The notes below the pieces were generated by a model. That model was given only the letters and a program-made list of their open reading frames with translations. It had not been told where the DNA came from and made no database searches. A stretch of DNA of 25,229 nt from a virus. Positions within the stretch are counted from its first letter, which is position 1; each line of letters starts with the position of its first letter. Shown here piece by piece: positions 104-24,266 of this stretch. Location: the IMG/VR virus record IMGVR_UViG_3300012003_000219, positions 1-25,229 of that record, one strand, 5' to 3'. The position numbers were made by a program, and so were the translations under genes.

Positions 104-124
104 GTCCGCCTTGGCAGGTACAAT
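104..124 (+). promoter_or_regulatory. Cassette promoter A (GTCCG-N10-TACAAT)
   Basis: GTCCG at 104-108, ten bases, then TACAAT at 119-124. The same spacing recurs before seven other genes in the window. A 15-nt string ending in the -10 box (111-125) is identical to that of the minus-strand cassette at 20994-21008. Predicted transcription start is near 131, about 64 nt before the first usable start codon. No good -35 TTGACA is present, so the GTCCG block centred near -25 may be the upstream contact. Confidence 0.6.
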
Positions 125-130
125 GGCAGC

Positions 131-194
131 AATAGAAAGTCCCCGCGAGCTTGCGACTCCGGGGACGTGGCTCGACCTAACTAGGAGGTCTCGC
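131..194 (+). ncRNA. Structured 5' leader RNA of HNH cassette A
   Basis: Hairpin 1: GUCCCCG (139-145) pairs with CGGGGAC (160-166); after an unpaired C146, GAG (147-149) pairs with CUC (157-159), leaving a 7-nt loop. Hairpin 2: GACCU (174-178) pairs with AGGUC (186-190), which buries part of the AGGAGG Shine-Dalgarno at 183-188. The same two-hairpin layout precedes three minus-strand HNH genes, with compensatory base changes in stem 1. I know of no catalogued family that it matches. It is far shorter than HEARO/omega RNAs. A cis-acting translation control element is the simplest reading. Confidence 0.65.
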
Positions 195-233
195 GTGGAG
201 GATTGTACGGAACGGGACGGGGGAATAAACTGA
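195..233 (+). CDS. 12-codon leader ORF overlapping HNH A (TGATG)
   Basis: AGGAGG at 183-188 is correctly spaced (6 nt) for a GTG at 195, which opens a 12-codon frame ending in TGA at 231-233. That TGA shares its A with the ATG of the endonuclease (TGATG), the classical termination-reinitiation arrangement. The first 14 nt (GTGGAGGATTGTAC) resemble the start of the HNH gene at 16010 (ATGGCGGATCGTAC, 11 of 14 identical). The ORF therefore looks like a truncated N-terminus of that other HNH family left behind in front of a different nuclease. It could alternatively be an untranslated relic. Confidence 0.45.
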   Translation: MEDCTERDGGIN

Positions 234-1012
234 TGCCTGGTCGTACCGCCGCCGATCAAGATCAGATCCGCGAGACATATGAGCGCACGGGGTCCGGGCG
301 CGAAACGGCTCGCGTTCTTGGATTGCATGAGAACACCGTGTATGCCGCCCTCCGTCGTATGCGGGGCAAGTGCCTAAACTGTGCATCGGACGCCGCTGCG
401 GGGCGCAAGTGCTGCGAGCGCTGTCTTGAGATCCAACGCGAGCGTGTCAAGGAGAGGCGCGCAGACCAGAAGAAGAAGGGACTGTGCGTGTCCTGCGACG
501 AGCGCGTGGAGTGGCCCTCCCGCACCCTTTGTGCCGTGCACCGCGCGAAGGCTGTCGAGACAAACCGTCAGTACGAGACACACGCGCGTTCTCAGAGAGT
601 TGGGACGCACCAAGGAAAACCGAATAGCCGACAGCGGCTGCGCTCGATTCGCAGTCGGTACGGACAGGGCGGACTCGATGCATGGGAGCGAGACGGAGCG
701 CGCTGCGTCATTTGCGACGCTTCTTACGAGGAAGCAACTATCACGATTCACCACAAGGACCTCACCAAGACGAACCATGCCGTTGAGAACTTGGTCTGTC
801 TTTGCTTCGACTGCCATCAACTGGTCCACGGCCTTTTGCGAAGCCGCGCGCCGCATAGCGTGCTCCCGTGGATCGAGGCTAATTGCCCGGAAGCCCGCGA
901 GCGGGCCAGATGTCAGCGAGAGCCGTGGGTTGCGGAGATGTCAAGCCCGGTAGTAGCAGCCGTGCTCCCACCATCGGTGGTGGTGACGGCGAACACAAGT
1001 CCGAGGTTGTAG
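233..1012 (+). CDS. HNH endonuclease with N-terminal helix-turn-helix
   Basis: Probable homing-type DNA endonuclease. The start is set at ATG 233 (preceded by GGGGGA and coupled to the upstream mini-ORF); a TTG at 203 is also in frame. An N-terminal helix-turn-helix (residues ~5-45: ETYERTGSGRETARVLGLHE) is followed by two Cys clusters (CLNC...CERC; CVSC...CAVH). The HNH core near residues 155-200 has CVIC, the HH of ITIHHKD, ENLVCLC and CHQLVH. The last ~33 codons run antisense into the 3' end of the capsid-operon gene at 913-1260, so the C-terminus may be fortuitous. It faces against the virion operon and carries its own promoter and leader, as expected of an inserted mobile cassette. Its protein is not homologous to the three minus-strand HNH proteins that share its leader. 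Confidence 0.8.
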   Translation: MPGRTAADQDQIRETYERTGSGRETARVLGLHENTVYAALRRMRGKCLNCASDAAAGRKCCERCLEIQRERVKERRADQKKKGLCVSCDERVEWPSRTLCAVHRAKAVETNRQYETHARSQRVGTHQGKPNSRQRLRSIRSRYGQGGLDAWERDGARCVICDASYEEATITIHHKDLTKTNHAVENLVCLCFDCHQLVHGLLRSRAPHSVLPWIEANCPEARERARCQREPWVAEMSSPVVAAVLPPSVVVTANTSPRL

Positions 1013-7656: not shown

Positions 7657-8756
7657 TCAGGCACGTATCGCTTGCTGCCGTCTTCTGCGGTCTCGACGCG
7701 GACAGACTTCGGCTTCGGGGCTTCGACATTCACATGGTTGTGAACCTCGGGAGCTGCGGCAGGCTCAACGTGGTTGTGTACGACTGGCGCTGCCTGCTCG
7801 GGAACATGAACGTTGACGGTGTGCTCGCCATGCTCCGGCATGTGGTTGTGGATGACGGGGGTGATTGAGCCGTCCCCGAAGTTGACGTGGACGTGGACGG
7901 GCTGCGGCGATGCCATTGGCGCGTCCTTCGCTACGGCCTCAACCATCGGCGAACGCCTGCCACTCCCGCCAACCGACCACGCCCCCTTGTGGCCCTTCTT
8001 GACTTGCTCCCAAAGGTTGTCATCGGGAACATGCGCGGCCAGCACCCACGACCCGGCCTTTACGACCTGTCCGCCCATTTGGAAATCACAGGGGGCGATG
8101 TAGGACTCGACAGGCCGGACTGTTTCGGGGGCCATCTTCCGGTGCTGGTCTCCGATAGCTAGACCCTGCTGGTAGAGGTAGCGATGGGCGGCAATCTCAA
8201 CGTCCTCCTTGCTGACGACATCGCCTTGTGAGTCCTCCACGTCTGGTTCGAGGACGATGCCGTATACGACCCGTGCCTCGTCGTCTGCTTTGAGGACTGA
8301 CAGCTCGGGTGTAGAAGTCTCCACCGGTTCGCCCTTTTTGCGCTTTCGTTTCGGCTTGGCCTCGCCTAGAGGTACGTCTACGTGAACATCTGTGGCTGTT
8401 GGGGCGTCTTTGCGAATGATCTGCCAGTCGCCAGCGGTGGGGAGTGCTGCTTCCGCTTCGCCGTCGAAGTTCTCAACGCCGGGAATCGCCAGGAAGGCAT
8501 CCCGCGCCGCGTCGTGGTCTTCGGTACTCGACCAGTCAGCGCCCTGCCAGAAGACGGTCTTGGTCTCGGGGTTCCACGCGCACCCCCCGTAGCCACCATC
8601 CGGCTTGAACCTGTCGGCAACCGCTCCGATCTGTCCCTCGATGCCAGACTTGCGAACGAGGACGGGGAGGGGACGGCGGACGAGTTCCACGGGTGGGGGA
8701 TATCGGCGGGGCGCGAGGGCAGGGGATTCCGTCCGGGGTGCCACGTACAATGTCAA
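7653..8756 (-). CDS. xkdF-like: XkdF-like prohead protease with His-rich C-terminus
   Basis: 367 residues from a TTG start; a GTG four codons later is an alternative. Residues ~165-270 match the XkdF family of putative phage serine proteases: VVYGIVLEPDVEDSQGDVVS, AHRYLYQQGLAIGDQHR and GHKGAWSVGGSGRR. The protein probably matures the head together with the scaffold and capsid proteins. The C-terminal ~75 residues are unusually rich in paired His (VIHNHMPEH, VVHNHVEPA, EVHNHVNVE), a possible metal-binding or virion-binding tail. No Shine-Dalgarno precedes the TTG, and the divergent nuclease gene starts 2 nt away with its promoter inside this gene's first codons. The original translation start may therefore have been altered by cassette insertion. 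Confidence 0.75.
   Translation of the reverse strand: MTLYVAPRTESPALAPRRYPPPVELVRRPLPVLVRKSGIEGQIGAVADRFKPDGGYGGCAWNPETKTVFWQGADWSSTEDHDAARDAFLAIPGVENFDGEAEAALPTAGDWQIIRKDAPTATDVHVDVPLGEAKPKRKRKKGEPVETSTPELSVLKADDEARVVYGIVLEPDVEDSQGDVVSKEDVEIAAHRYLYQQGLAIGDQHRKMAPETVRPVESYIAPCDFQMGGQVVKAGSWVLAAHVPDDNLWEQVKKGHKGAWSVGGSGRRSPMVEAVAKDAPMASPQPVHVHVNFGDGSITPVIHNHMPEHGEHTVNVHVPEQAAPVVHNHVEPAAAPEVHNHVNVEAPKPKSVRVETAEDGSKRYVPE
8731..8751 (+). promoter_or_regulatory. Leaderless cassette promoter F (GTCCG-N10-TACAAT)
   Basis: GTCCGGGGTG at 8731-8740, TACAAT at 8746-8751, six bases, then GTG at 8758. The motif lies inside the first codons of the divergent protease gene. The match to the promoters at 4149 and 12085 covers GTCCGGGGTG plus most of the following CCAYG. 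Confidence 0.65.
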
Positions 8757-8757
8757 G

Positions 8758-9918
8758 GTGGCAGGGACGATGGCGGAACTGGCGGCGCGGCGAGCTAAGG
8801 TTGTAGCGGCCTACTTCGATGAGAGTGTTCCACTGAGTGAGCGGACATCGACCGCGCTCGGCGCTCGATTCGGCCTTTACTACCAGACGATCTTGCATGA
8901 CGTTCGGGCGAGTGGGTATGAGACGCGAGACTTTCGACCGCGCCGCCTACCCACTTCGGTAACGATCTCTTGTGATGGCTGTGGGGAGAGTTTCACCATT
9001 CCGCAGTGGAAGATCGACCACGGCCAGCGATTCTGCTCGGTCAAATGCAGGCGGTCGCCACTGACCGAGCGTGAGTGCAAGTTCTGTGGTGCAACCATGT
9101 TCGTTCCCGAATACATAACCCGCCAGGGGGAGGGAAAGGGCACGTACTGCTCCAAGGAGTGCGGCGCGGCGGGTACTGCCCTGGGTCGCATCGGAAAACC
9201 AAACCCGGCGGCGCGCAAGTCCATCCTGGAATACCACCGCCAAAAGCGGGAGACAGGTTATCCGCCATCTCCGCTCAAGGGAGAGTGGCTCAAGTTCAAC
9301 TGCGAAATCTGCGGCGTGGAGTATGAGCGCCCCGTCTCCGCCACGCGGCGGGGCCGCAAGCCCAAGCACTGCTCGCGCGAGTGCTCCCACGAGGCCAAGC
9401 GGCGCGTCACGGGCACAGATCACCCCCTCTACTCGTCCGAAGAAAAGCCGTGCGAGTGGTGCGGGGAGCCATTCCTAATCAAGCAATGCAGAGTTAGGGA
9501 CGGGGCGGCGAAGTATTGCTCCAAGCAGTGCCAAGGTGCGGCGTCTTGTGCGGCGCAAGGCGGTCGTTCTTCAAGCATCGAAGATGCAATGGCACTTGCC
9601 TTCGATGCGATTGGAGTCAAGTACGAACGACAGGCAAGGATCGGCCGCTGGTCGGTTGACTTCCTGTTAGTCGATGCACCGATCGTCGTTGAGTGCGATG
9701 GGGACTACTGGCACGCAAGGGCCGAAGTGATCGCACGAGACGAGCGAAAGAACGCCGACCTTCTACAGCGCGGCTATGGCGTAGTAAGACTTCCTGAATG
9801 GCAAATCAAGAGCGAGGCGAATGCGCTTGCGCGGTCAGTCGCCGAGTACCAGGAAGCAGCTACAGCGGCAGCCGGGGTGTACGAATCCTGGCAAGTCCCC
9901 GTTCCAATCGTCGCCTAG
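8758..9918 (+). CDS. Four-zinc-finger EDxHD/Vsr-like endonuclease
   Basis: 386 residues from GTG 8758, chosen because it is 6 nt after the -10 box as in the sister cassettes. Four consecutive treble-clef-like zinc motifs are visible: CDGC...FCSVKC, CKFC...YCSKEC, CEIC...HCSREC and CEWC...YCSKQC. The C-terminal ~110 residues are a PD-(D/E)xK-type nuclease of the Vsr/DUF559/EDxHD group: SSIEDAMALAFDAIGV, WSVDFLLVDAPIVVECDGDY, W-H, and a closing GYGVVRLPEWQIK. Likely a homing endonuclease in which the zinc array reads the target and the C-terminal domain cuts. The last 84 nt overlap the convergent MuF gene. Transcribed against the virion operon from its own promoter. Confidence 0.8.
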   Translation: MAGTMAELAARRAKVVAAYFDESVPLSERTSTALGARFGLYYQTILHDVRASGYETRDFRPRRLPTSVTISCDGCGESFTIPQWKIDHGQRFCSVKCRRSPLTERECKFCGATMFVPEYITRQGEGKGTYCSKECGAAGTALGRIGKPNPAARKSILEYHRQKRETGYPPSPLKGEWLKFNCEICGVEYERPVSATRRGRKPKHCSRECSHEAKRRVTGTDHPLYSSEEKPCEWCGEPFLIKQCRVRDGAAKYCSKQCQGAASCAAQGGRSSSIEDAMALAFDAIGVKYERQARIGRWSVDFLLVDAPIVVECDGDYWHARAEVIARDERKNADLLQRGYGVVRLPEWQIKSEANALARSVAEYQEAATAAAGVYESWQVPVPIVA

Positions 9919-12111: not shown

Positions 12112-12522
12112 ATGGCAGGCATCTCGTTCGAGAAGCGAATGAGCGTCTACAAGCGCGACGGCTTCGCCTGCGCTCATTGCGGGTTCTCTCAGACCATCGA
12201 GGAAGTGCTCTCCGTGATCGAGAACGCCCGTCACAACCTCGGGCGATTCCCGCGCAATGCCCTACTGACCATCGACCACATTCTTCCCTTGTCGCGTGGC
12301 GGCGGTAACGGATACAGCAACCTCCAGACGCTCTGCTACGAGTGCAATCACCGCAAGGCGGATCGCGTACCGGAAGGTCTGCGCTCGCGTCGTGGCGTTG
12401 CGCCGAAGCGCCGTCACCCGCCCGAGCCTCGCATCGTTACGGGGCGTTTCGTCGGTCGCGCTCCCGTTGGTCAGCCGTTCAGTCGCCCGTTCGCGGTGCT
12501 TGCCGAGCTACTAAGCCCCTAA
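12112..12522 (+). CDS. Small HNH endonuclease
   Basis: 136 residues. A canonical HNH fold is visible: CAHC (residues ~20-23), TIDHILPLSRGGGNGYSNLQ and TLCYECNHRKADR, giving the H-N-H triad with a structural CxxC/CxxC zinc site. An Arg/Pro-rich tail follows and may aid DNA binding. Translation probably begins at the 5' end of the mRNA. It is divergent from the portal gene and convergent with the glycosyltransferase gene (12-nt tail overlap), lying exactly at the border between the virion operon and the accessory operon. Probably a homing cassette. Confidence 0.85.
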   Translation: MAGISFEKRMSVYKRDGFACAHCGFSQTIEEVLSVIENARHNLGRFPRNALLTIDHILPLSRGGGNGYSNLQTLCYECNHRKADRVPEGLRSRRGVAPKRRHPPEPRIVTGRFVGRAPVGQPFSRPFAVLAELLSP

Positions 12523-14853: not shown

Positions 14854-15468
14854 CTAGATGCGCTCGACTAGGACGTTGTTACTAGTCACGGCAAGGCGAG
14901 CAAATCCCTCATGCGCGGCGGTTTGTATCCGGTAGCGCTCATTGCCATCCTCGGCTTCAACAATCGCCAGCGCGCCCGGTGCGAATGCGTCGAGCCTGCG
15001 GAGTTCGTCCCACAGCGCCAACGTGCCACCCTCAACGTCGATTGAGATCAGGTCGTAAGGTCCGGGCAGCACAGATAGGAACTGCTCGACCGTGATAGCG
15101 GCAACGTAGGTAGGCGTGAACGGGACACCAGACTTGGCCCACTTGTCGCGGTAGTCCTCGACCGTTGTCGAGAGAAGATCGCGCGCATAGTGAAAGCGGA
15201 TCAGCGGTGATGGCTCGACAACGAGAGCGGCCTGCACTACCTCTACGTCGTCACGGTCGGCGTACAACTCGGCGAGTCGGTCGAATGCCCATGCTGCTGG
15301 TTCGATCGCTACGCCCCCCCAGCCGCGTAGGGCGAGCGCGCGGACGTTGCTGGCCGTGATGCCGTCCGTTTCGCCGACGCTGAGCCAGCGTCCGTGCGTC
15401 GAGCGTCGATCGGCCCACTCTAGGATCGTTGCCTGTTCCGATGACTGCGACCAGTCACGCTCGGTCAC
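14854..15468 (-). CDS. FkbM-family SAM-dependent methyltransferase
   Basis: 204 residues. The N-terminal glycine motif is WLSVGETDGITASNVRALAL, the acidic strand-2 end is GGVAIEPAAWAF, and PYDLISIDVEGGTLALWDEL is the characteristic IDVEG motif of the FkbM family, whose members O-methylate sugars and natural products. Translation is coupled to the HNH gene immediately upstream (GTGA). With glycosyltransferases on both sides, methylation of a sugar attached by them is the likeliest role, though the substrate is not shown by the sequence. Confidence 0.75.
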   Translation of the reverse strand: MTERDWSQSSEQATILEWADRRSTHGRWLSVGETDGITASNVRALALRGWGGVAIEPAAWAFDRLAELYADRDDVEVVQAALVVEPSPLIRFHYARDLLSTTVEDYRDKWAKSGVPFTPTYVAAITVEQFLSVLPGPYDLISIDVEGGTLALWDELRRLDAFAPGALAIVEAEDGNERYRIQTAAHEGFARLAVTSNNVLVERI

Positions 15469-16010
15469 TTCCTAGCCTCTGCTCTCTTGCGGCGCTCGTA
15501 TTCGCGCGACCTGTCCCGGTTGCAGGTGCGGCAGTGGCGCTTGCCGTATTTGTCAAGCCACGTATTGGCTTCGTCGTAGTCGTGACCTTGTGGACAACGG
15601 GTCTTTAGTCGCGCTGCTCGCGCAACGTTCTCCCGAAATGTCACCGCCTCTAGATGGGCAGGATTGACGCATGAGGGTGTGAGGCACAGGTGATCGAGTA
15701 CAAGCCCTTCGGGGATCGGCCCGACAAGAAGTTCGTATGAGTAGCGGTGGGCATAGACAAGCCTTCCCCGTTCGGGCACCCAGAACTGTCCGTAGCCAAG
15801 TCCGTTGTCATGGGCTGTCCATAGCCAGCAAGTCTCGGTCTTGTTGACCTTCGCCCAAAAGCGCTCGTTGAGAGTGGCCGATGGGTCGCGTAGATATGGC
15901 AAGCCATCGAGGGTGCCATCGCGACGAGCCTGCGTGTAGTGATACTCGCAAAGCCCACGGCATGAAAAGGGTCTGTCGCACCCGCCGACAGAACAAGTAC
16001 GATCCGCCAT
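15465..16010 (-). CDS. HNH_3-type homing endonuclease B
   Basis: 181 residues from ATG 16010, 7 nt after GGAGG. An N-terminal CSVGGCDRP...GLCEYHY is a small C-x4-C...C-x2-H zinc finger. The HNH core is FWAKVNKTETCWLWTA, YELLVGPIPEGLVLDHLC and CVNPAHLEAVTFRENV, and a C-terminal zinc element follows (CPQGHDYDEANT, CRTCNRD). One of three paralogues in the window (with 20313-20924 and 23595-24176), all with this zinc-HNH-zinc order. The frame is open upstream through the leader RNA as far as an ATG at 16106, but the start after the Shine-Dalgarno is preferred because only it matches in all three. The stop overlaps the FkbM gene start. Confidence 0.85.
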   Translation of the reverse strand: MADRTCSVGGCDRPFSCRGLCEYHYTQARRDGTLDGLPYLRDPSATLNERFWAKVNKTETCWLWTAHDNGLGYGQFWVPERGRLVYAHRYSYELLVGPIPEGLVLDHLCLTPSCVNPAHLEAVTFRENVARAARLKTRCPQGHDYDEANTWLDKYGKRHCRTCNRDRSREYERRKRAEARK

Positions 16011-16073
16011 GTTCGAGCCTCCAATCAGGTTCGATCCACGCCCCCGGAGTCTTAAGCTCGCGGGGGCTTTTAC
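16011..16073 (-). ncRNA. Structured 5' leader RNA of HNH cassette B
   Basis: Stem 1: GCCCCCG (16067-16061) pairs with CGGGGGC (16046-16040), then GAG/CUC around the loop CUUAAGA. Hairpin 2: CCU pairs with AGG of the GGAGG Shine-Dalgarno, with CGA/UCG extending it. Compared with leader A the second pair of stem 1 changes from U-A to C-G, keeping the pairing. The loop differs by two bases. Confidence 0.65.
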
Positions 16074-16080
16074 GTTGTCC

Positions 16081-16101
16081 ATTGTAGCCGTGGTAGCGGT
16101 C
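16081..16101 (-). promoter_or_regulatory. Cassette promoter B (GACCG-N10-TACAAT)
   Basis: On the minus strand GACCG (16101-16097), ten bases, TACAAT (16086-16081), then ~13 nt to the leader hairpin. The upstream element has one change from the GTCCG consensus. The promoter lies immediately after the stop codon of the upstream methyltransferase, so the HNH and FkbM genes could be expressed independently of the rest of the operon. Confidence 0.5.
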
Positions 16102-19665: not shown

Positions 19666-20316
19666 CTACCCGGCAGCCCGGACGTTCCGCACATGCTCGT
19701 ACTCGGGAAGCGGCGGAACCTGCCCAACATGGCGAGGGCCGCCAGCGAAAAGGGAGTCTGTGGTCGAGTAGCGGTACGAATAAAGCTCAGCGGGGATGAA
19801 CACTTCCGACTGGACTAGCCCGGTGGCTTTGACCCGTTCGGCCCATGCTCGATCTTCACCGAATCCGGGCTGGAAGGGCAGACCCATCACGGCATACCGC
19901 TTCCTCAGGGGGTTCAAATGGGACAGGTCCCGCAGGTAGGCGCTGTCTGTCTCGCTCCACCCATCGTTCGTGATCGAGTGGATGGCGGGCTTCTGCTCGA
20001 CGCCATTTACGAGGTAGCGAATGCGGAAGCCAACCGTGTCCGGGTCGTCTACCAGCGCCTCCATGATCCGGCCCACGTAGTCGTCGTGGACCCAGTCGTC
20101 ATCATCGACATACGCGACGTGTCTGGCCGTGGCCGCAAGCATGAGCTGGTTGCGCTTGCTGCCGATTGCGGCGACTCCATCGTCCCTAGCAAGTAGAACC
20201 CGTGCTCGACCGTAAAATGGACCAAGCTGCGGGGCCAGGTGGTCGAGCAGGGCTACTAGCTGATCGTGTCTCGCCCAAACAGACGCGATGAGAATATCCA
20301 GCGTGGGCAGATTCAC
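19666..20316 (-). CDS. Family 2 glycosyltransferase
   Basis: 216 residues from GTG 20316, which overlaps the stop of HNH gene C (GTGA); the longer frame runs through the HNH gene and is rejected. DILIASVWARHDQLVALLDH is the N-terminal GT2 strand, HVAYVDDDDWVHDDYVGRIM the DxD metal/nucleotide-sugar site, and GFGEDRAWAERVKATG the acceptor-side ED motif (catalytic base). A complete small GT-A core. The acceptor is unknown; a virion protein is likely by context. Confidence 0.8.
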   Translation of the reverse strand: MNLPTLDILIASVWARHDQLVALLDHLAPQLGPFYGRARVLLARDDGVAAIGSKRNQLMLAATARHVAYVDDDDWVHDDYVGRIMEALVDDPDTVGFRIRYLVNGVEQKPAIHSITNDGWSETDSAYLRDLSHLNPLRKRYAVMGLPFQPGFGEDRAWAERVKATGLVQSEVFIPAELYSYRYSTTDSLFAGGPRHVGQVPPLPEYEHVRNVRAAG

Positions 20317-20924
20317 TTGCGGCGGTTCTCCCGAAGATCGCACTGGCGACAATGGCGACTCTTCCCGCCCTTGCTGAGCCGCGTGTTCTCTGCCGTGAAC
20401 TCGTGGCCGCGTGGACAATGGTCGGTTGCCCTCGCCGCGTGCATTCGGCGCACATTCTCGGAGAGGGTCACCGGCTCCAAGTGATCCGGATTCACGCAGA
20501 GCGTGTTGAAGCACAGATGGTCAATGGTCAATCCCTCGGGAATGGGGCCGACGAGCAGTTCGTAGGCGACGCGGTGAGCCTGCTCGGGCTTGCCCTTTGG
20601 AAAGAAGCGTCCATACCCGCGAGTGACTGCGGCCGTCCAGTTCCAGCACGTCTCGGTCTTTTCGACCTTCTCCCAGAAGCGCTCGCTGATTGAGAGATCG
20701 CGCTGCGCTGGTTCGCCGACGTTCTCGATTCCACGGAGCTTGATGCGCTGCCAGTGCTTGTGACACAGACCTTGGCCGACGACGACCGACTCGCATCCTT
20801 CAACCGAGCACAAGGGCGCGGGAAGGGTGCCGTTACGACGCGCCTCATACCAGTGCTTGCGACAGTAGCCCTTGCCGTAGTGTTTGTCTTCACACCCACC
20901 GATCGAACAAGTACGCTGTGCCAT
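20313..20924 (-). CDS. HNH_3-type homing endonuclease C (duplicated zinc finger)
   Basis: 203 residues from ATG 20924. Two N-terminal zinc units are present (CSIGGCEDK...GYCRKHW and CSVEGCESV...GLCHKHW), one more than in paralogues B and D. These are followed by FWEKVEKTETCWNWTA, YELLVGPIPEGLTIDHLC and CVNPDHLEPVTLSENV (HNH), then the C-terminal zinc element CPRGHEFTAENT...CRQC. The extra finger may alter or extend the recognised site. The stop is coupled by GTGA to the GT2 gene. The upstream leader is in frame and open, but translation is expected from the ATG after GGAGG. Confidence 0.85.
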   Translation of the reverse strand: MAQRTCSIGGCEDKHYGKGYCRKHWYEARRNGTLPAPLCSVEGCESVVVGQGLCHKHWQRIKLRGIENVGEPAQRDLSISERFWEKVEKTETCWNWTAAVTRGYGRFFPKGKPEQAHRVAYELLVGPIPEGLTIDHLCFNTLCVNPDHLEPVTLSENVRRMHAARATDHCPRGHEFTAENTRLSKGGKSRHCRQCDLRENRRK

Positions 20925-20988
20925 GTCTGAACCTCCACTTAGGTTTGGACCACGACCCCGGAGGTGACTGCCTCGCGGGGTCTTTAAC
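20925..20988 (-). ncRNA. Structured 5' leader RNA of HNH cassette C
   Basis: Stem 1: GACCCCG (20982-20976) pairs with CGGGGUC (20960-20954), extended by GAGG/CCUC with the loop CAGUCA. Hairpin 2: AACCU pairs perfectly with AGGUU, with the GGAGG Shine-Dalgarno partly inside the stem. Stem-1 position 2 is A-U here against U-A (leader A) and C-G (leader B): three different Watson-Crick pairs at one position. Confidence 0.7.
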
Positions 20989-20994
20989 CGTGTC

Positions 20995-21015
20995 ATTGTA
21001 CCTGCCAAGCTGGAC
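20995..21015 (-). promoter_or_regulatory. Cassette promoter C (GTCCA-N10-TACAAT)
   Basis: Minus strand GTCCA (21015-21011), ten bases, TACAAT (21000-20995). The 15 nt from TTGGCAGG through TACAATG are identical to those of promoter A at 111-125. It follows directly after the stop codon of the gene at 21020. Confidence 0.6.
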
Positions 21016-21842: not shown

Positions 21843-21915
21843 AGCGCGGTAGCTCAGTGGCAGAGTCCTAACGCTTACTGCGAGGGGACGCCCGGTTCGA
21901 TTCCGGCCCGCGCAA
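21843..21915 (+). tRNA. tRNA-like gene with aberrant anticodon arm
   Basis: A strong D-arm (TAGCTCAGTGGCAGAGT, 21850-21866) and T-arm (CCCGGTTCGATTCCGG around 21891-21906) are present, and a 6-bp GC acceptor stem closes them (GCGCGG 21844-21849 with CCGCGC 21908-21913). The outermost pair is A-A, and one T-stem pair (C-C) is mismatched. The anticodon arm cannot be folded normally: both possible alignments leave two mismatches in the stem. They give anticodon UUA (would read UAA stops) or UAC (Val). CCA is not encoded. It lies on the plus strand between minus-strand genes. It may be a decayed tRNA, an unusual tRNA, or a tRNA-derived element. Confidence 0.5.
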
Positions 21916-23044: not shown

Positions 23045-23620
23045 CTAGCTGCGAAGTTCGTGCGCGATGCGCTCGACCATTCCAGGTGGTAGGTAGGTTC
23101 GACCAAGCACCGAAGTGGTGACAGGGTTGCCGGTGTAAATCGGTAGCAGCGACCGCCCCTCGTTCAAGTGCTCGACTGGCGGCAAATGACAGTGCGGCTG
23201 TTCGTGGTAGTAGTCGCGGAGCACCGCCGCCATGAGCCACACGTCGAGCTGTTTCCAGTACCCCGGCTCGCCGTAATTCGACGGGATACGACAAGCGATC
23301 TCGGCTGCATCGGGGTAGGTGACAAGGAAGTCCTCACTGAATCGAGTGAAGCCGAGTGCAGGCCCGACCGTGGTTGTCCACGGATACGGGTTCGCGCAGT
23401 AGCCGTGCTTGCACTCGTCCATGCGCGCGATCTGCTCGCGCGTCCAGTTCATGTCGTGCTCAGCGAGTAGGAAGTCCTCGCCCTCCCGCCAGAGCCGACA
23501 AAGCAGGCGTCCATAGGCGTAGTCGTCCTCCATTGCGACGAACTCGCAGCCGTCTACCCAATCACGAGCGGCGCGGTATGTCTCCGGCCGTAGATCAGTG
23601 AACGGAACTACGACGCGCAA
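23045..23620 (-). CDS. Glycosyltransferase-like protein
   Basis: 191 residues, start taken as TTG 23620 inside the end of HNH gene D (26-nt overlap). RVVVPFTDLRPETYRAARDW opens the fold, WREGEDFLLAEHDMNWTREQ carries an EHD acidic site where GT-A enzymes have DxD, and VEHLNEGRSLLPIYTG follows. This arrangement resembles small glycosyltransferase-like proteins I recall from actinobacteriophages. The start is the weak point: no ATG/GTG fits, and the Shine-Dalgarno (AAGGCGGG) is imperfect. Confidence 0.55.
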   Translation of the reverse strand: MRVVVPFTDLRPETYRAARDWVDGCEFVAMEDDYAYGRLLCRLWREGEDFLLAEHDMNWTREQIARMDECKHGYCANPYPWTTTVGPALGFTRFSEDFLVTYPDAAEIACRIPSNYGEPGYWKQLDVWLMAAVLRDYYHEQPHCHLPPVEHLNEGRSLLPIYTGNPVTTSVLGRTYLPPGMVERIAHELRS

Positions 23621-24176
23621 GAGAAACCCGCCTTGCGCGCTCGCGGTTGCACACACGACACAGCCTGTGATTCGTGCCCTTGTAGCGGTACGTGTTGGCC
23701 TCGTTGTACTCGTGCCCTTGCGGACAGTGAGTGCGGGACGCCGCGTAGGCCGTAATCGTCTCGCCGCGTAGGACGTTCTCGCGCATCGTGACCGCCTCCA
23801 GATGGGCCGGGTTGACACACGGAGGATTGCGGCACAGATGATCGAGGGTTAGACCTTCCGGAATGGGGCCGACATTCATCCTGTACGAGATCCGATGAGC
23901 ACCCTCGGTCGATGGACGGTCTGTGCCACGGCGAATCCCAACGCGGCCATAGCCGTCCGATGTTGCCCCCGTCCATACCCAGCAGGGACCAAGTTCCGGC
24001 CTCGCCGATGGGATCGGGCCGTCCTTGTCCACCTTGCCCCAAAACCGTTGTTCGGTGGTCGGCCTCGGGTCGTCTGTCGAGCCGTAGTTCGCTAGCCGCT
24101 GGTAGTGCATTCCGCAGAGTCCACCCGCCAGCACTTTCCGTTCGCACTCGCCGACCGAACAAGTAACCTGAGCCAC
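23595..24176 (-). CDS. HNH_3-type homing endonuclease D
   Basis: 193 residues from GTG 24176, 6 nt after GGAGG. Same order as paralogues B and C: the zinc finger CSVGECERK...GLCGMHY, then FWGKVDKDGPIPSARPELGP with an insertion before CWVWTG, YRMNVGPIPEGLTLDHLC and CVNPAHLEAVTMRENV (HNH), and the C-terminal CPQGHEYNEANT...CRVC. Its tail overlaps the glycosyltransferase gene. It has a structured leader like B and C, but its promoter segment is inverted relative to A and C. Confidence 0.85.
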   Translation of the reverse strand: MAQVTCSVGECERKVLAGGLCGMHYQRLANYGSTDDPRPTTEQRFWGKVDKDGPIPSARPELGPCWVWTGATSDGYGRVGIRRGTDRPSTEGAHRISYRMNVGPIPEGLTLDHLCRNPPCVNPAHLEAVTMRENVLRGETITAYAASRTHCPQGHEYNEANTYRYKGTNHRLCRVCNRERARRVSLARRSSVH

Positions 24177-24240
24177 GTTGGGCCTCCTGTCTAGGTTCAA
24201 CCGTGCTCCCGGAGGTGTCTGCCTCGCGGGAGCTTCTACC
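24177..24240 (-). ncRNA. Structured 5' leader RNA of HNH cassette D
   Basis: Stem 1 is GCUCCCG paired with CGGGAGC, with C-G and U-A at positions 2 and 3, again compensatory relative to leaders A-C; GAGG/CCUC extends it around the loop CAGACA. Hairpin 2: CCU pairs with AGG of AGGAGG, with UUG/CAA possible outside. The leader ends at the GTG start of the HNH gene. Confidence 0.65.
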
Positions 24241-24245
24241 TTGGC

Positions 24246-24266
24246 AGGGTACATGGCAGGTCGGAT
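24246..24266 (-). promoter_or_regulatory. Cassette promoter D (ATCCG-N10-TACCCT)
   Basis: Minus strand ATCCG (24266-24262), ten bases, TACCCT (24251-24246), a weaker -10 than in A-C. The sequence around it is nearly the reverse complement of the promoter A core: the plus strand reads CCTTGGCAGGGTACATGGCAG against CCTTGGCAGGTACAATGGCAG at 110-130. The call is therefore less certain than for A and C. Confidence 0.4.

Follow-up and report, generated by a model that had tools for sequence, protein, structure and literature searches.

Four genes in a 25-kb linear virus record (25,229 nt, analysed at full length and hereafter called the window) encode HNH nuclease domains, by which they are putative homing endonucleases, and each is preceded by a short two-hairpin element that separates a TACAAT-type −10 box from the start codon. 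The locus raises the question of what such an element does in front of such genes, and on which strand. A sequence-only reading had taken it for a sense-strand cis-regulatory leader tied to homing endonucleases. Neither part of that proposal is supported: selection appears to act on the structure of the antisense strand, which has a −10 box of its own within the ORF, and in sampled bacteria the element also precedes integrases, excisionases, a resolvase, Cas1, anti-sigma-like ATPases and small unknown genes. We find that the element is very probably a portable, antisense-controlled expression unit, in which a cis-antisense RNA of roughly 65 nt would repress translation.

Four copies in the window and their homologues

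All four two-hairpin elements, at 131–194 (+), 16073–16011 (−), 20988–20925 (−) and 24240–24177 (−) (copies A–D, respectively), are present in the window with the stem-1 sequences originally reported. The core pattern they share, CCCGCGAG-N4-12-CTCCGGG, has four matches in the window and none in 100 dinucleotide shuffles. Each copy does head an HNH cassette, as had been described, B, C and D preceding HNH_3 genes and A a gene of another HNH family recognised through HNH phrogs. BLAST of the window against phage records was empty, leaving it with no close phage-genome relative. The features are as follows, with matches to the antisense-strand model, R2, given in bits.

Copy A
119..124 (+), mRNA promoter −10 box TACAAT, from the sequence; in relatives its distance to hairpin 1 is constant
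about 131 (+), predicted mRNA start
139..166 (−), hairpin 1; antisense, a terminator-like stem with one bulged G, then CTTTCTATT
174..190 (−), hairpin 2 (GACCT/AGGTC), overlapping the Shine–Dalgarno sequence GGAGG
131..196 (−), predicted cis-antisense RNA of about 65 nt with putative ends, coextensive with the mRNA 5′ UTR; R2 match 129–211 (−), 56.4 bits
202..207 (−), antisense −10 box TACAAT, falling in the first few codons that follow GTG 195–197
195–233 (+), 12-codon GTG mini-ORF, overlapping the target ATG
233..1012 (+), target, HNH endonuclease with HTH (phrog_1271, E 1.9e-11)

Copy B
16081..16086 (−), mRNA promoter −10 box TACAAT, from the sequence
16040..16067 (+), hairpin 1, antisense terminator-like stem with tail CTTTTACG
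16013..16034 (+), hairpin 2, continuous 8-bp antisense stem UCGAGCCU/AGGUUCGA; A·C mismatch on the sense strand
16009..16075 (+), predicted cis-antisense RNA; R2 match 15994–16077 (+), 68.9 bits
15998..16003 (+), antisense −10 box TACGAT, from the sequence
15465..16010 (−), target, HNH_3 endonuclease, 181 aa

Copy C
20995..21000 (−), mRNA promoter −10 box TACAAT, from the sequence
20954..20982 (+), hairpin 1, tail TCTTTAAC
20925..20950 (+), hairpin 2, 10-bp stem GUCUGAACCU/AGGUUUGGAC, continuous only on the antisense strand
20923..20990 (+), predicted cis-antisense RNA; R2 match 20908–20992 (+), 69.0 bits
20912..20917 (+), antisense −10 box TACGCT, from the sequence
20313..20924 (−), target, HNH_3 endonuclease, 203 aa

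Copy D
24246..24251 (−), mRNA promoter −10-like box TACCCT, from the sequence
24205..24233 (+), hairpin 1, tail GCTTCTAC
24177..24201 (+), hairpin 2, continuous 9-bp antisense stem GUUGGGCCU/AGGUUCAAC; two A·C mismatches on the sense strand
24175..24242 (+), predicted cis-antisense RNA; R2 match 24160–24243 (+), 62.5 bits
24164..24169 (+), antisense −10 box TAACCT, from the sequence
23595..24176 (−), target, HNH_3 endonuclease, 193 aa

In copy A, the first codons of the GTG region resemble those of B-like HNH genes, and the frame stops after 12 codons (MEDCTERDGGIN), its end overlapping in TGATG with the ATG that starts a different HNH gene. The unit, antisense −10 box included, seems to have been put before a new gene. 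Two further endonuclease-like genes, DUF559/zinc finger (8605–9918) and HNH (12112–12522), both (+), are without the RNA element; they run opposite to the flanking phage genes, with overlapping ends. The virus record also carries a tRNA-Val (anticodon tac) at window positions 21843–21915 (+).

In a pattern search, unrelated viral contigs proved to have the core upstream of their HNH genes, and relatives picked by protein similarity alone, independently of the pattern, have diverged leaders of the same layout. A covariance model of the sense strand, R1, added copies from the same phage records, most of them before endonucleases (HNH_3, EndoVII and others). Across 101 aligned copies, many of them from related streptomycetes, both hairpins show compensatory changes. 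Hairpin 1 has double changes at 10 of its 11 pairs and a covariation score of 0.53 (0.12 in shuffles, at most 0.08 when slid), and the same alignment conserves one bulged base (C in 99%) and a YGG linker. For hairpin 2, none of 5,000 partner permutations paired as well. Mutual information computed blind to structure ranked hairpin 1 pairs at the top and hairpin 2 pairs next, and revealed no further helix, long-range pairing or pseudoknot. The earlier view that RNA structure, not a peptide, is conserved is borne out by this strong covariation. Its constant GAG(G)/(C)CUC holds inside the window only; among relatives the inner stem varies (GGTG/CACC, GCGG/CCGC, GCTG/CAGC, GACG/CGTC and others) while pairing is retained. 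We also considered a switch between the hairpin-1 CUCC and the Shine–Dalgarno GGAG and rejected it, as relatives lose CUCC yet keep the stem. Leaders are more alike within than between genomes, even across unrelated genes (0 of 2,000 permutations).

The strand that carries the structure

Pairs that depart from Watson–Crick geometry distinguish the two strands, an A·C on the mRNA strand being a U·G on the opposite strand. Read as sense, A·C cells outnumber G·U cells by 50 to 6 in hairpin 1 (p 1e-9) and by 112 to 21 in hairpin 2 (p 3e-16); G·U cells number 121 on the antisense strand versus 11 on the sense strand, about 11 to 1, and canonical cells make up 94.1% versus 85.4%. Of 100 copies, 89 have the lower minimum free energy on the antisense strand. 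When 70 antisense sequences were aligned with plain MAFFT, RNAalifold gave exactly two hairpins (−31.3 kcal/mol), with compensatory changes at 17 of 18 pairs; the same alignment read as sense gave one partial hairpin (−14.4 kcal/mol). In the window, hairpin 2 of copies B, C and D is unbroken on the antisense strand only. R2 scored held-out copies above R1 (65.0 versus 39.7 bits for locus L391; 61.7 versus 32.0 for L426), a gain of about 10 to 30 bits that comes in part from the greater length of R2, and it gave fewer terminator false positives. Model-only matches such as L427 and L428 were recognised as ordinary terminators and set aside. These sequence statistics place the selected structure on the strand opposite to the gene.

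A regulator in the sense-strand 5′ UTR is the alternative closest to the original proposal: hairpin 2 would hide the ribosome-binding site, hairpin 1 would guard the 5′ end or bind a factor, and codons 3–5 would hold a translation-ramp motif. The element does lie between promoter and start codon, hairpin 2 overlaps the Shine–Dalgarno sequence, homing endonucleases of T4 offer precedents (PMC2988022), and the mRNA 5′ UTR of the window copies also folds (−26 to −29 kcal/mol). Against it stand the roughly elevenfold excess of G·U on the antisense strand and the disappearance there of mismatches that break the sense hairpins, so that we consider a sense regulator improbable. Still less credit goes to a DNA-level element (a cruciform, a protein-binding inverted repeat or the end of a mobile cassette), which we regard as very unlikely: hairpin 1 is nearly all Watson–Crick pairs and copies travel with mobile genes, but the symmetry of duplex DNA does not predict abundant G·U pairs on one strand, nor is it suggested by two promoters and a start codon at fixed spacing.

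Promoters, RNA ends and the proposed mechanism

The antisense reading calls for a promoter on the opposite strand, and conservation inside the ORF points to one. Among unrelated proteins, position 2 of codon 3 is A in 82%, the wobble position of codon 4 is T in 85% and position 1 of codon 5 is A in 85%; the codon-4 T compares with a background of 13% (P=4e-55; P=2e-27 for host-chromosome copies alone). The A at +8 and the TA at +12/+13, each about 80–85% conserved, read TANNNT when reversed, and an actinobacterial −10 box of this form would begin an RNA close to the start codon. Across the copies no conserved −35 box was found for this antisense promoter, and a generic sigma-70 scan passed over the element promoters. 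Nucleotides at codons 3–5 can raise expression (PMC6920384), a point in favour of the sense regulator; the conserved motif is, however, the exact reversal of TANNNT and not AADUAU, and we rejected the translation-ramp explanation of the in-ORF A..UA.

At the other end, antisense hairpin 1 is followed by about 8 T-rich nucleotides and then by background composition, and together stem and tail look like a terminator of the antisense RNA. The U-tract is short and interrupted, which weighs against taking termination at this hairpin as efficient. On the sense strand, TANNNT clusters 18–20 nt before hairpin 1, and in most copies the target start codon falls exactly at the predicted place. From the promoter placements and the T-rich tail, the putative antisense RNA and the mRNA 5′ UTR would span the same ~65 nt. 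The GC-rich stem and T-rich tail on the antisense strand could also mean a terminator and nothing else, with hairpin 1 protecting the gene against read-through on the antisense side and hairpin 2 being incidental, and R1 does match ordinary terminators such as L427 and L428. Yet hairpin 2 covaries independently, and bulge, linker and in-ORF −10 box are all conserved; we regard this explanation, too, as very unlikely. The three alternatives each fail on either the strand asymmetry or the in-ORF box.

The preferred, antisense-controlled reading can be laid out as follows. A promoter whose −10 box lies 18–20 nt upstream of hairpin 1 would produce an mRNA with a 5′ UTR of about 65 nt. A second promoter, with its TANNNT box in codons 3–5, would produce an antisense RNA starting near the start codon; this RNA is predicted to fold into two stem-loops, the first exposing an anti-Shine–Dalgarno sequence in its loop, and to end at the GC-rich hairpin 1 and its T-rich tail, where the mRNA begins. 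Pairing across the whole 5′ UTR would then prevent ribosomes from binding and hold down the level of the endonuclease, integrase or other product. The sequence statistics establish that a structure is conserved and on which strand, that an antisense −10 box sits within the ORF, that a T-rich tail is present, that the distance to the mRNA promoter is fixed and that many kinds of host and gene are involved; from these points we infer the production of both transcripts, their exact ends and translational repression by pairing. The antisense reading can be tested directly on the window copies and on those of Gordonia phage Malisha; with a promoter inside the ORF, synonymous mutations are predicted to have effects.

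Hosts, target genes and known systems

At least 43 of 296 sampled Actinomycetota genomes carry the element (R2). With R1, it was found in at least 40 of 61 Streptomyces genomes (at least 14 matches in the richest), in at least 13 of 121 Chloroflexota genomes, where some matches are weak, and in one Gemmatimonadota MAG; none of 119 Bacillota genomes appeared among the R1 matches listed, and at least 1 of 299 Pseudomonadota genomes has it (R2). One actinobacterial genome (G754:C161) holds two tandem R2 copies, at 131–216 and 310–399. Among isolates, Malisha (OP434458) has two copies, at 9386–9452 and 26684–26752, the genes they precede being gp34 (HNH) and gp15 (endonuclease VII), and Brevibacterium phage Rousseau has the element before ROUS_22; in most isolate actinophages tested, HNH genes lie in tight operons without it. 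The element-bearing gp15 of Malisha stands directly before the tail assembly chaperone gene gp16 (OP434458.1, 9386–10115), and a homing insertion at this locus is plausible.

Pfam HNH_3 was detected in 31 of 97 target proteins, a set rich in HNH because the search began from HNH genes. Other targets include endonuclease VII, resolvases, excisionase-like HTH_17 proteins, Cas1, HATPase and many small unknown proteins, together with tyrosine-integrase-like targets and one GIY-YIG-like target assigned by eye. These genome surveys rule out a leader specific to homing endonucleases. The two Cas1 genes (L405 in G268; L432 in G484) belong to one actinobacterial and one Chloroflexota genome. At several Streptomyces loci the target adjoins, often divergently, a small GntR- or XRE-like gene. 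Frequently downstream of the element in Streptomyces is a family of ~100-aa proteins (L366–L394; M-x-x-L-I-R ... LVRPYL.AHE), which often adjoins small regulators of these types.

The closest known parallel is RNA-OUT of IS10/Tn10, a 69-nt antisense RNA against the transposase mRNA that blocks ribosome binding (PMC5006887). Both are short structured opposite-strand RNAs (predicted, for the element) that cover the site where translation of a DNA-mobility gene begins, with an opposite-strand promoter inside the target gene (for the element, the predicted promoter at the conserved antisense TANNNT of codons 3–5), secondary structure selected on the antisense strand and coverage of the translation initiation region, hairpin 2 overlapping the Shine–Dalgarno sequence and ending at the start codon. 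The two share no sequence or covariance-model relation. RNA-OUT is one long stem from enterobacterial elements, whereas our element has two stem-loops, covers the whole 5′ UTR and occurs on many unrelated genes and on actinobacterial elements.

Hairpins of the T4 type, in the I-TevI, segB and Aeh1 mobE mRNAs, likewise control phage homing-endonuclease expression through RNA near the ribosome-binding site (PMC2988022). They are sense-strand structures bypassed by late promoters; in the element it is the antisense structure that is selected, and the gene's own promoter lies upstream of the two hairpins. We found no stable sense helix enclosing the ribosome-binding site with an internal late promoter, sense helix 2 being weak and mismatched. 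The SAS/ESAS repeats of cluster K mycobacteriophages are also repeated inverted-repeat and RBS-proximal elements before actinophage starts (PMC3203893). ESAS has little RNA-pairing support and a sequence conserved in one cluster, whereas the element keeps pairing and changes sequence across phyla, and the 13-bp SAS GGGATAGGAGCCC beside the start is absent from the window leaders and the element consensus.

CopA, RNAI, Sok and P22 sar are also antisense RNAs encoded in cis; they have stem-loops and belong to plasmid, toxin or phage genes. To our knowledge each is bound to one gene family, unlike the element, which is reused on unrelated families.

The suggestion that the element was undescribed stands: Rfam 15 cmscan returned nothing for it in the window (one chance lncRNA match fell elsewhere) or, on either strand at E≤1, at eight loci that carry strong copies, and a full-text search of open-licence papers found no description. 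Antisense RNAs are known by the hundreds from Streptomyces transcriptomes (PMC3765725), so individual copies may have been detected before but not recognised as a family. We see an even chance that the copies form one unrecognised portable antisense RNA family across Actinomycetota, Chloroflexota, Gemmatimonadota and phages, repeatedly captured as a dosage brake by unrelated mobile or accessory genes (homing endonucleases, integrases, excisionases, Cas1), with fast-changing stems by which each copy silences its own gene only. The element would represent an antisense RNA family that is widespread in actinobacteria and their phages and absent from Rfam, and one of the few that move between unrelated genes. 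It would also explain, in general terms, how hosts lacking T4 late-promoter logic keep free-standing homing endonucleases, integrases and excisionases at harmless levels.

Two other hairpins were seen in the searches. Lambdoid phages SfV, mEp460 and ST64B carry GACGCCCGCGAG-TGTGCAG-CTCCGGGCGTC-GTGG between ymfL-like and ymfM/Rha-like genes, and this lambdoid element (L002, 5463–5484, and about 50 similar enterobacterial loci) has the same core hairpin, bulged C and GTGG. It reached only 15 bits with R1 and had no R2 match; we do not claim it as a relative of the actinobacterial element. A further recurrent hairpin, aaaGCGCCCGCGAGG..CCTCCGGGCGC, precedes an ATG by about 80 nt in contigs from metagenomes and isolates (L006, L031, L057, L061, L070, L073, L092, L100 and L105).
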